Under the pieces are notes generated by a model. The model saw nothing but the letters and a program-made list of their open reading frames with translations. It searched no databases and was not told the DNA's origin. The position numbers were made by a program, and so were the translations under genes. 35,300 bases of DNA from positions 1-35,300 of the forward strand of contig DATLAK010000100.1 in the NCBI GenBank assembly GCA_035527535.1, in the 5' to 3' direction. Positions 20,917 through 23,728 of the stretch are shown one piece after another. Origin of the DNA: Armatimonadota bacterium. Its GTDB lineage: Bacteria > Armatimonadota > Hebobacteria > GCA-020354555 > CP070648. Each line of letters starts with the position of its first letter. The stretch's first letter is position 1.

Positions 20917-20970
20917 CCGCCGAGCGTTGGTGTGCGCACCACCATGTAGCATAGCCGTTTTCCAATCCGG

Positions 20971-21023
20971 ATGGCTAGGCCCTTCGGGCCGCCATGGCGG
21001 GCCGATCAGGCGGCCCTAGCCAT
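20971..21023. repeat. Palindromic repeat element 1 (two hairpin units head to head)
   Basis: A 53-bp imperfect palindrome begins ATGGCTA and ends TAGCCAT. Unit 1 (20972-20994, +) reads TGGCTA, stem GGCCC, loop TTC, stem GGGCC, GCCA. Unit 2 (20995-21022, -) reads TGGCTA, stem GGGCC, an 8-nt loop, stem GGCCC, GCCA. The two units abut exactly at GCCA|TGGC. Further copies with different but still paired stems are at 23373-23712. The element lies between an oxidoreductase gene and a DUF2283 gene and could act as a REP-like or bidirectional terminator sequence. Confidence 0.8.
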
Positions 21024-21051
21024 TCATCGGGGCCCCCGGCTGTGAGACGCC

Positions 21052-21261
21052 ATGAAAGTCATCTACGAGCGCGAAACCGATACCCTCACCATGATCCCGG
21101 CCGAGGCGCCGGTGGCAGAGAGCGACGAACTGCGCGACGGTCTGGTTATAGACTATGATCGCGCGGGGCACATCGTCTCGCTGGAGGTGATGGACGCCTC
21201 CGAGCACGTTGCCGAACCGGCCTCCATCGCGTTCGAACTGAAGGAGCCGGCGGCCCGCTGA
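21052..21261 (+). CDS. DUF2283 family small protein
   Basis: 69-aa protein with the hallmark start MKVIYERETDTLTM, then GLVIDYDRAGHIVSLEVMDASEH, typical of DUF2283. The family is small, widespread and of unknown function, often found beside toxin-antitoxin-like genes. No toxin partner is recognisable here. It starts 28 bp after the palindromic repeat element and ends 6 bp before the methyltransferase gene, so the two are probably cotranscribed. RBS weak (GAG). Confidence 0.87.
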   Translation: MKVIYERETDTLTMIPAEAPVAESDELRDGLVIDYDRAGHIVSLEVMDASEHVAEPASIAFELKEPAAR

Positions 21262-21267
21262 GGTGTT

Positions 21268-22062
21268 ATGCGATTGGGCGACACGGAAGTCGGGCGCATG
21301 TGGGACGACAACGCGGACGCATGGACGCTGCTGGCGCGCGCGGGATGTGACGTATATCGCGACCAGCTCAACACCCCCGCGTTCCTGGCGATGCTCCCCG
21401 ATGTCGAGGGCTTGCGCGGGCTGGACATCGGGTGTGGGGAAGGCTGCAACACGCGCCTGGTCTCGAAGCGCGGGGCCAGGATGACCGGCATTGACATCGC
21501 GCCGAAGTTCGTTTACCATGCGCGCGCGAAAGAATCCGAGGAGCCGCTCGGCGTCAGCTATGTCGCGGGAACCGGCAGCAGGCTGCCGTTCGGCTCCGCT
21601 TCGTTTGACTTCGCCGTGGCCTTTATGAGCCTGATGGATATGGCCGACCAGGACAACGCCGTGCGCGAAGCCCGTCGCGTGCTGCGACCGGGGGGATTCC
21701 TGCAGTTTTCGATCATTCATCCGTGCTTCAACACCCCGCGTCTTGCATGGATTCACGATGAGTCGGGCGAGCGTGTTGCCGTGGCGTGCGGGGATTACTT
21801 CGCAGACCAACGTGGGCGCGTTGACGAATGGCTGTTTGGCGCGGCTCCCGCAGACGTGAAAGCAAACCTGCGGAAGTTCCGTGTGCCGAGATTCATGCGA
21901 ACGCTCAGCAGTTGGATGAACCTGCTGATTGATGCCGGATTCACGCTGGAAAGAGTCGAAGAGCCGTGCGCTGACGAGGAGACAGCCCGCCGCTGCCCGG
22001 AGGTAGCGGACACCCGGATCGTCGCTTACTTTCTTCACGTGCGGTGCAGGAAGAGGCAGTGA
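21268..22062 (+). CDS. Class I SAM-dependent methyltransferase
   Basis: 264-aa Rossmann-fold methyltransferase of the Methyltransf_11 type. Motif I is LDIGCGEGCNT (52-62), the acidic residue that binds the ribose follows in GIDIAPK (74-80), and the core continues with LPFGSASFDFAVAFMSLMDM and EARRVLRPGGFLQFSI. The substrate cannot be deduced; related proteins methylate small molecules, quinones or sugars. It is coupled to the DUF2283 gene by a 6-bp gap. Downstream the next gene has its own strong RBS 96 bp later. Confidence 0.9.
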   Translation: MRLGDTEVGRMWDDNADAWTLLARAGCDVYRDQLNTPAFLAMLPDVEGLRGLDIGCGEGCNTRLVSKRGARMTGIDIAPKFVYHARAKESEEPLGVSYVAGTGSRLPFGSASFDFAVAFMSLMDMADQDNAVREARRVLRPGGFLQFSIIHPCFNTPRLAWIHDESGERVAVACGDYFADQRGRVDEWLFGAAPADVKANLRKFRVPRFMRTLSSWMNLLIDAGFTLERVEEPCADEETARRCPEVADTRIVAYFLHVRCRKRQ

Positions 22063-22158
22063 GACGATTAGGGGTTTCGGAGACAGCAGGATTGTCGGCC
22101 TTGAGGAGGAATAGACGGGCGACGTTCAGCCGGTACATGTCGAGGAGGTAAGACTAGC

Positions 22159-23121
22159 ATGAAGATCGGCGTTTTCACGGCTTTGTTCGGCCAGCAGCCG
22201 CTGGAGCAGGCGTTGGACTACATCGCGGCCTCGGGAGTCGAGGCGGTCGAGATCGGCACCGGCAACTACCCCGGCAACCCGCACTGCGACGCCAAGGCGC
22301 TGCTCGCCAGCGCCCCCAAGCGCAAGGAGTTCCTGAAGGCGATCGAGAGCCGCGGGCTGATCCTGAGCGGCCTGTCCTGCCACGGCAACCCATTGCACCC
22401 AAGCAAGCGCATCGCCAAGGAGCATCACGACGTTCACCGCCTGACGGTGCAGCTTGCCGCCAAGCTGGGCGTCGAGCGCGTCATCGGCTTCTCCGGCTGC
22501 CCGGGCGACGGCGAGCGCGCCAAGGCGCCCAACTGGGTCACCTGCCCCTGGCCGCCGGACTTCACCGAAGTCGTGGAGTGGCAGTGGAAGGAGAAGGTCG
22601 TCCCCTACTGGAAGGCCGAGGCGGCCTACGCCAGGAAGCACGGCATCAAGCTGTGCTTCGAGATGCACCCGGGGTTCGTGGTTTACAACCCGGAGACCAT
22701 GCTGCGCCTGCGCGACGCCTGCGGCGACAATGTGGGCGCCAATTTCGACCCGAGCCACCTGTTCTGGCAGGGCATTGACCCCACCGCGGCGATCCGCATG
22801 CTCAAGGACTGCATCTTCCATGTCCATGCCAAGGACGCGCGCATTGATGCCTGGAACACCCGCGTCAACGGCGTCCTCGACACCAAAGGCTATGGGCGCG
22901 AAGCCGACCGTTCGTGGATCTTTCGCACCGTCGGCTACGGCCACAGCTACGAGGTGTGGAAGGACATCGTCAGCCACCTGCGCATGGTGGGCTATGACTA
23001 CGTGCTCAGCATCGAGCACGAGGACAGCCTGATGAGCGTCAACGAGGGCTTCCAGAAGGCGGTAACTTTCCTGAAGCAGGTGGTGATCTCGGAGTCGCCG
23101 ACGGCGATGTGGTGGGCGTGA
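22159..23121 (+). CDS. Sugar phosphate isomerase/epimerase (TIM barrel)
   Basis: AP-endonuclease-2/xylose-isomerase-like TIM barrel, 320 aa. Expected metal ligands: Glu168 (CFEMHPGF), Asp197 (NFDPSHLFW), His223 (HVHAKD) and Glu286 (SIEHED). The metal-ligand and sequence style (ANFDPSHLFWQGIDP, DTKGYG) matches the inositol- and sugar-catabolism epimerases often found near Gfo/Idh/MocA dehydrogenases, such as the two genes at 18682-20916. Start ATG 22159 has GAGGAGGT 9 nt upstream. Substrate unknown. It is clearly different from the rhamnose-isomerase-like protein at 6675. Confidence 0.9.
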   Translation: MKIGVFTALFGQQPLEQALDYIAASGVEAVEIGTGNYPGNPHCDAKALLASAPKRKEFLKAIESRGLILSGLSCHGNPLHPSKRIAKEHHDVHRLTVQLAAKLGVERVIGFSGCPGDGERAKAPNWVTCPWPPDFTEVVEWQWKEKVVPYWKAEAAYARKHGIKLCFEMHPGFVVYNPETMLRLRDACGDNVGANFDPSHLFWQGIDPTAAIRMLKDCIFHVHAKDARIDAWNTRVNGVLDTKGYGREADRSWIFRTVGYGHSYEVWKDIVSHLRMVGYDYVLSIEHEDSLMSVNEGFQKAVTFLKQVVISESPTAMWWA

Positions 23122-23168
23122 GCGCGCTGGGCGCGGGCGGCGCCCTCCATACGGGAATCGGCAAGCGG

Positions 23169-23193
23169 CGGGTCGCAGCGGTGCTGCGGCCCG
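23169..23193 (+). terminator. Stem-loop after the TIM-barrel isomerase gene
   Basis: CGGGTCGCAGC (23169-23179), loop GGT, and GCTGCGGCCCG (23183-23193) form an 11-bp stem with one T-G wobble. It lies 48 nt after the isomerase stop. The following bases are not T-rich, so it would be a T-less terminator or just an RNA end protector. Confidence 0.4.
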
Positions 23194-23372
23194 TCTGCGC
23201 GTTCGCCGCCTCCGAGGAGGTGCGGCCAAAGCGCGCGCAACCCGCGATGCACACTGCCCGCGCCCACTGCGCGCTACGCACGCAGGGGCTCCGTTTCTGG
23301 CTGTCAAGACAATCCGCCGCGTGGGCTGCGCCTCAACGCCTGTCCCTTTCAGGGCTACTTCGCTCGACGAAG

Positions 23373-23393
23373 TGGCTAGGTCTTCGACCGCCA
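23373..23393 (+). repeat. Hairpin repeat unit (single)
   Basis: TGGCTA, stem GGTC, loop TTC, stem GACC, GCCA. Same frame as the units at 20972 and 23407 but with its own stem sequence. The bases after it, TCCCGG, parallel TGGCGG and CGGCGG after the other plus-strand units. Confidence 0.75.
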
Positions 23394-23406
23394 TCCCGGC
23401 CGCAGG

Positions 23407-23458
23407 TGGCTAGGTGGCTCCGCCACCGCCACGGCGGTCTGCAGCGCAGACCTAGCCG
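23407..23458. repeat. Palindromic repeat element 2 (two hairpin units head to head)
   Basis: Same architecture as the element at 20971-21023 with different stems. The plus unit (23407-23431) reads TGGCTA, GGTGGC, loop TCC, GCCACC, GCCA. The minus unit (23432-23458) reads CGGCTA, GGTCTGC, loop GCT, GCAGACC, GCCG. They abut at GCCA|CGGC. In the minus unit the outer T-A pair has become C-G, so even the outer stem keeps pairing. Confidence 0.8.
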
Positions 23459-23527
23459 CCTAGGGACTAGGCTTCGAAGCCCGCGAAGGCGGGGATGTTC
23501 GCGGAGCGTGGGGACTGGGCAACCAAC

Positions 23528-23615
23528 TCCTCCCCCCTTCCAGGGGGAGGACTGAGGTGGGGGTGGCAGGCACGGCGTTTTCACCCTCACCCAACCTCCC
23601 CCTCGCAGGGGGAGG
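23528..23615. repeat. Inverted pair of C-rich hairpins (BIME-like)
   Basis: Hairpin 1 (23528-23551) is TCCTCCCCC...GGGGGAGGA and hairpin 2 (23595-23615) is CCTCCCCC-TCGCA-GGGGGAGG. The flanks are also inverted: CTGAGGTGGGGGTGG after hairpin 1 resembles the reverse complement of CACCCTCACCCAA before hairpin 2. Two inverted copies of a hairpin around a short spacer is the layout of bacterial REP/BIME repeats. It is a different family from the TGGCTA units nearby. Confidence 0.65.
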
Positions 23616-23687
23616 GGTTGCAATCGCGCATCCGGGTGCCCGGGCGCGCGGCCCCTTCGACAGGCCCCTAAGCCCGCTGGGCCGGGG

Positions 23688-23712
23688 TGGCGGTCGCGGC
23701 GCGACCTAGCCA
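23688..23712 (-). repeat. Hairpin repeat unit (single, minus strand)
   Basis: On the minus strand: TGGCTA, stem GGTCGC, loop GCC, stem GCGACC, GCCA. A perfect member of the family, directly abutting the 16-bp word at 23713-23728 that ends the IS256-type remnant. Confidence 0.75.
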
Positions 23713-23728
23713 ACTCAGGGCAGGCTCT
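23713..23728 (-). repeat. 16-bp word shared with the IS1380-type remnant
   Basis: AGAGCCTGCCCTGAGT on the minus strand, identical to 35227-35242. In both places it is fused to transposase coding sequence in the same orientation and reads as Ser-Leu-Pro-stop in the transposase frame. Confidence 0.6.

Follow-up and report, generated by a model that had tools for sequence, protein, structure and literature searches.

Doublets of repetitive extragenic palindromic (REP) sequences, described as REPINs (REP doublets forming hairpins) or bacterial interspersed mosaic elements (BIMEs), are short, high-copy, mostly extragenic pairs of inverted hairpins in which the doublet is the mobile unit, the stems carry compensatory changes and a TAG motif stands ahead of the inner stem; for REPINs, excision has also been reported (PMC3116915, PMC2817692, PMC8266576). 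An element sharing this build occurs in a 35,300-nt stretch of DNA (the window; contig DATLAK010000100.1) from the 3.24-Mb genome of a member of the Armatimonadota, class Ca. Hebobacteria. It consists of two hairpins in opposite orientation with zero spacing, YGGC-TA-stem-loop-stem-GCCR followed directly by YGGC-stem-loop-stem-TA-GCCR, and spans 42-61 nt. Unlike REPINs and BIMEs, which carry GTAG in front, it has its CTAG inside the hairpin: the tag is built from the outer foot, a bulged TA and the inner stem, and is not a GTAG/CGTC tag outside the foot. The hairpins also abut without a spacer, no examined gene for a REP-associated tyrosine transposase (RAYT) is flanked by the element, and precise insertion is shown here through empty sites, nesting and homologous genes. 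An earlier note on this DNA proposed an undescribed REP-like mobile palindrome. Mobility and compensated stems held up, and no description of the element was found in the literature on the class or on Armatimonadetes repeats; however, the unit proved to be a doublet, and strict REP status was not shown because no examined RAYT gene is flanked by the element. Since two RAYT-linked REP features fail (GTAG outside the foot and a flanking rayt gene), we do not file the element as a strict REP.

Adjacent hairpins that are thought to be mobile also make up the double-hairpin elements of fungal (Allomyces) mitochondria and related repetitive hairpin elements. The likeness, which lies in two adjacent hairpins, mobility and the lack of a target duplication (PMC2800124), is one of design and not of descent, no homology being expected; the present element lies in a bacterial chromosome, is GC-rich and has a fixed foot and TA bulge. 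Rickettsia palindromic elements are likewise palindromic and in frame within protein genes, but they are about 150 bp long and frequent in genes (PMC10969869), whereas the present element is 42-61 nt and mostly extragenic. Bacterial miniature inverted-repeat transposable elements (MITEs; Correia, RUP and others) are similarly short and non-autonomous, with inverted-repeat ends (here YGGCTAGG...CCTAGCCR). However, MITEs driven by DDE enzymes leave a target duplication, and none is seen here: 9 of 11 empty sites align at offset 0 and in-gene copies add exactly the length of the element. The ends of insertion sequences of the IS200/IS605 kind (IS608, ISDra2) are hairpins with unpaired bases that produce no larger target duplication, and in them a tetranucleotide pairs with the cleavage site (PMC8266576, PMC2817692). 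Here, in contrast, no gene lies between the hairpins, and the foot would only by inference take the guide or cleavage part.

The mobile or replicative unit is the doublet of inverted hairpins and not the single hairpin, and true singlets are almost absent. About 1.2 of the 3.24 Mb were read as stretches (L numbers), complemented by pattern searches over the whole genome; the stretches were picked for containing matches, so that densities in them differ from genome averages. In 58 doublets the minus unit begins directly after the plus unit (gap exactly 0), and a clean partner is missing for only 29 of 185 strict units in the 1.2 Mb. On inspection, nearly all of these 29 trace back to an imperfect partner or to nested insertion; two resemble chance matches in coding sequence. 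None of the 185 units belonged to an autonomous version in which a gene separates the hairpins. Four foot types of 4 bp each occur (TGGC/GCCA, CGGC/GCCG, TCCC/GGGA and CCCC/GGGG). In each hairpin the unpaired TA lies between the foot and a variable inner stem, on the hairpin's outer side. A census across about 1.06 Mb of genome stretches took in hairpins whose foot is 4 bp, whose 5′ side bears a 2-nt bulge and whose inner stem has 4 bp or more; the bulge was TA in 160, of which 149 had feet TGGC, CGGC, TCCC or CCCC. The other eleven A/T-containing dinucleotides occurred 23-51 times each with scattered feet, and G/C-only bulges 84-136 times. The tetranucleotide CTAG is rare, with 644 sites in the 1.2 Mb read, 147 of them within counted doublets.

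The element is mobile and has made clean insertions at dozens of places in the genome. An uninterrupted copy of the flanks is present in the same genome for 11 of 69 independent sites, 9 of which align best at offset 0, compared to 2 of 600 random intergenic removals. The strongest cases are L053:15903-15949, matched by L074 and L060 (36/36 identical), and L051, matched by L061. Palindromic repeats account for several of the empty sites, among them the targets of elements A and D in the window (Table 1). Removal of an inner element restores a perfect outer element in at least 8 cases, with nesting up to three deep; because shifted removals also restore 1 to 6, the nesting count taken by itself is suggestive, the weight resting on the empty sites. 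The doublet thus enters as a whole and with precision, neither duplicating nor deleting target sequence, mostly between G and C; its targets are often further copies of the element or other palindromic repeats. With flanks oriented by foot type, position +1 is C in 60 of 68 and position -1 is G in 47 of 68. A preference for the centre of an extended inverted repeat was considered and rejected, flank pairing beyond the bordering G and C being no greater than composition predicts. Likewise rejected was an IS630-like mode, in which a shorter unit would enter between TA dinucleotides with TA duplication, because the empty sites also lack YGGC...GCCR.

The stems vary under preserved pairing. The frame TGGCTAGG-N(4-30)-CCGCCA, searched genome-wide, occurs 113 times, compared to 3 for the reversed pattern used as a control; in the window, GGCTAGG..CCGCC occurs 6 times against 0.46 expected, a number reached in 0 of 100 shuffles. 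Units for the pairing tests were picked by the frame alone, blind to pairing. Across 90 distinct units the inner stem past GG/CC averages 2.8 bp, compared to 0.43 in shuffled interiors (maximum 0.66). The observed 2.9 compares to 2.1 (maximum 2.5) after right halves were exchanged among units of equal length; stems are shared by many units, swapping therefore retains some pairing, and the fairer measure is how far the observed pairing exceeds that of swapped halves. In 24 units of 25 nt, 93.8% of cells are paired, both sides have changed in 35 cells (11.9 in shuffles) and at 6 of 10 stem pairs, and the covariation score is 0.372 against 0.123 shuffled; neither the cell count nor the score was reached in 500 shuffles. 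Covariation extends to the four outer (foot) stems as well as the inner ones. The outer pair is T-A in 52 of the 90 units, C-G in 28 and something else in 10; the unit in which the earlier note remarked the T-A to C-G exchange is the second hairpin of element C (Table 1). That note had read compensatory change into its six units, and had allowed that the family might be an artefact of few copies or of pairing no better than in shuffled sequence; copies are many and the pairing lies above shuffles. Whole halves recur as well: CGGCTAGGTCTGCTCTGCAGACCGCCG is found with five partner hairpin types and TGGCTAGGGCCGACGAATCGGCCCGCCA with five. This recurrence suggests exchange at the hairpin junction, and independent mutation or gene conversion could contribute. 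Most doublets of this genome pair a TGGC hairpin with a different foot type, and those listed for class members G005, G009 and G011 are TGGC-TGGC.

Doublets are mostly intergenic, a count that the earlier note had called for: 6 of 67 lie within predicted genes, against 83% of random 48-mers, both figures being approximate since gene calls came from a simple hexamer model. In-frame copies in protein genes (L058:10439-10486, L070:16720-16761, L080:13979-14023, L092:19677-19718 and L063:6954-6998) add 14-16 residues to a BadF-type ATPase, a HemN-type protein, an AP_endonuc_2 protein and others. The 16 extra residues of the BadF-type ATPase correspond to a 48-nt element and the 14 of the HemN-type protein to a 42-nt element. 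They are missing from the homologues of the sister genome (G001, a member of the same family) and of other class members, which gives the polarity as insertion and not loss; the position of the gap shifts by a few residues among homologues. A complete 48-nt doublet (L189:546-593, in IMGVR_UViG_3300035099_000273) also lies in frame in the open reading frame 350-829, to which it adds VARPVAAMAVASGDLA; the contig has a phage-type gene layout, its viral status being judged by eye and by the collection only. Five intragenic copies of the genome and the phage-contig copy are all in phase 1 with a length that is a multiple of 3, two of them verified against homologues, although calling a gene across an element needs an open frame and the statistic is therefore partly built in. 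The phase shared by the judgeable copies appears to be the only one that is free of TAG in both feet at such a length. Judged from sequence, this would be a clear-cut example of peptides being added to proteins by a hairpin element. One genome therefore records exact insertion events (empty sites, nests and in-frame protein insertions) along with compensated stems and swapped halves, and the recorded events make target choice, the definition of the ends and what the enzyme reads directly testable. The BadF-type homologue of the sister genome (G001:C1:3130863-3131597, L191) reads with one TAG inside its conserved domain, which may be an error, a pseudogene or recoding.

The search of related genomes that had been proposed was made with patterns, and other metagenome-assembled genomes (MAGs) of the class were positive in addition to the 113 copies at home. 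When 84,980 species genomes were scanned with a 24-base doublet pattern, 14 stretches matched; the MAGs that contain them bear the titles Ca. Hebobacteria, Armatimonadetes or Bacillota. Several of the stretches match by position class members G005, G007, G009, G011 and G013, and the Bacillota titles are accordingly taken as database labels and not as true placement. The doublet pattern is present in G001 and was not found in the genomes of families f2 and f4 that were searched. Among the species genomes scanned, the element thus appears to be found only in Ca. Hebobacteria-type (Armatimonadota) MAGs.

How the element moves is a question of graded likelihood. We lean towards a REPIN-like, non-autonomous element that a Y1-type enzyme, acting in trans, would move in the form of folded single-stranded DNA; the element itself is established, and the chances that the enzyme is of the Y1 type are roughly even. 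The lack of target duplication, the hairpin ends with unpaired bases and the conservation of shape over sequence together point to single-stranded Y1 (HUH) chemistry, as in IS200/IS605 and TnpAREP (PMC8266576). A transposase of the RAYT/IS200 kind would read the hairpin and the TA bulge and not the letters of the stem, which would leave stems to drift through compensated changes. The foot YGGC/GCCR may act like the pairing of guide and cleavage site in IS200/IS605 elements, and because the foot doubles as the hairpin junction, cutting there would account for both the clean ends and the swapped halves. A search with profiles PF01797 and NF047646, with subsequent inspection of flanks, found Y1/REP_Tyr_transpos genes in 12 of 14 class genomes, and many adjoin GTAG-tagged hairpins. 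One RAYT gene of G007 adjoins GTAG-hairpin-A-hairpin-CTAC (L129:1105-1157), a nearly spacer-free doublet that resembles the CTAG element in design and is possibly linked to it in evolution. Several findings weigh against a RAYT-like mover. The CTAG unit is near none of the 38 Y1-family loci examined in the class. The genome itself has four RAYT-like genes, on contigs C61, C149, C175 and C189; three of them adjoin other hairpin families, and a different inverted repeat brackets the remaining one. In family f2, RAYT-like genes occur in genomes that have no element, and the tag is CTAG within the stem and not GTAG in front. No Y1 gene was found in the carriers G011 (74% complete, 19 single-pattern matches) and G012 (81% complete, few copies), and the RAYT tree contains no clade common to all carriers. 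The search for a cognate transposase was without result both by proximity, no inspected Y1/RAYT flank in the 14 class genomes having a CTAG unit, and by co-occurrence.

These same absences, of a cognate RAYT in cis at any examined locus and of a co-occurring clade, are what would be expected if a class-specific element of the same mobile kind had spread without any RAYT, through another recombinase that reads structure or through RNA-level copying as proposed for the Allomyces elements, with the fold being read and the halves exchangeable. RNA intermediates were proposed there because of the lack of target duplication (PMC2800124), and the four covarying foot stems would fit selection whether it acts on folded RNA or folded DNA. 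We hold this explanation to be possible but the less probable one, given that no candidate enzyme was found for it and that the element is built like the GTAG hairpin doublets found with RAYTs of the same class (L129, L033). Selection by the host for a structured RNA or regulatory site (a terminator, an mRNA 3′ stabilizer or a protein-binding palindrome), with repetition secondary, is very unlikely, although the extragenic bias and the strong folding of five of the six elements tested would fit it and REPs are known to have been co-opted in this way (PMC8266576). Convergent 3′-3′ gaps are not favoured (9 of 58, by predicted gene context), the window has 0 Rfam covariance-model matches at gathering score, copies lie in frame within coding genes, in a phage-type gene and in each other, and empty sites exist in the same genome; a host function is unnecessary to explain the copies. 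Template switching, a local hairpin-correcting replication error, can yield compensated stem changes without selection, and both inner stems and loops vary, as it would allow. Acting on chance GC-rich palindromes without dispersal, it has next to no probability and is already refuted as a full explanation by the 113 copies against 3 in the reversed control, the specific TA bulge, the zero-gap doublets and the precise empty sites; it may contribute to stem variability.

Other hairpins surround RAYT-like genes of the genome. The RAYT-like gene at L169:1650-2321 (contig C189) is flanked on either side by GTAG-tagged hairpins; a further one, GTAGGGGCGCAC..GTGCGCCCCTAC, is inserted in frame inside this gene. 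In L031 (contig C61; 1026-1428 and 1971-2067), a RAYT-like gene sits within arrays of the hairpins CGCGGGGTT..AACCCCGCG and CGCGACCTT..AAGGTCGCG.

The window contains four elements, A (20972-21022), B (23373-23466), C (23407-23458) and D (23665-23712), with C inside the second hairpin of B (Table 1). All six units with a shared frame that the earlier note had placed here are present in the sequence. The doublet structure, the feet TCCC/GGGA and CCCC/GGGG, the nesting of one element in another and two more units (the second hairpin of B, split by insertion, and the first of D) go beyond it. Rejoined, the second hairpin of B is a perfect minus-strand unit, TCCC-TA-GGCC-tgc-GGCC-GGGA. Uninterrupted copies of the target of A exist elsewhere, for example at L068:12788 (3/36 mismatches, offset 0); the target of D has empty copies at L061:440 and L062:3076 and other filled copies in L038, L051 and L092.

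Table 1. Hairpins and insertion targets of elements A to D (window positions).
Feature	Position	Strand	Structure or sequence
Element A, hairpin 1	20972..20994	+	TGGC-TA-GGCCC-ttc-GGGCC-GCCA
Element A, hairpin 2	20995..21022	-	TGGC-TA-GGGCCG-cctgat-CGGCCC-GCCA (minus reading); zero spacing from hairpin 1
Target of element A	20954..21040	unstranded	repeat GCCGTTTTCCAATCCGGA (20954-20971), then TTCATCGGGGCCCCCGGC (21023-21040)
Element B, hairpin 1	23373..23393	+	TGGC-TA-GGTC-ttc-GACC-GCCA
Element B, hairpin 2	23394..23466	-	split by nested element: TCCCGGCCGCAGG (23394-23406) and CCTAGGGA (23459-23466)
Element C, hairpin 1 (nested in B)	23407..23431	+	TGGC-TA-GGTGGC-tcc-GCCACC-GCCA
Element C, hairpin 2	23432..23458	-	CGGC-TA-GGTCTGC-gct-GCAGACC-GCCG; outer pair C-G, not T-A
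Element D, hairpin 1	23665..23687	+	CCCC-TA-AGCCC-gct-GGGCC-GGGG; one mismatched pair
Element D, hairpin 2	23688..23712	-	TGGC-TA-GGTCGC-gcc-GCGACC-GCCA
Target of element D	23657..23720	unstranded	repeat TCGACAGG (23657-23664), then CTCAGGG (from ~23713, one extra A here)

Folded as single-stranded DNA, five of the six elements tested were more stable than shuffles (z -3.1 to -3.8), and element D, with its one mismatched pair, was not (z -0.8). Element C folds as drawn, and the best fold of element A is one long hairpin, not two. Another repeated palindrome, CCCCCTTCCAGGGGGAGG / CCTCCCCCTCGCAGGGGG, occupies 23533-23615 of the window, in the same intergenic gap.

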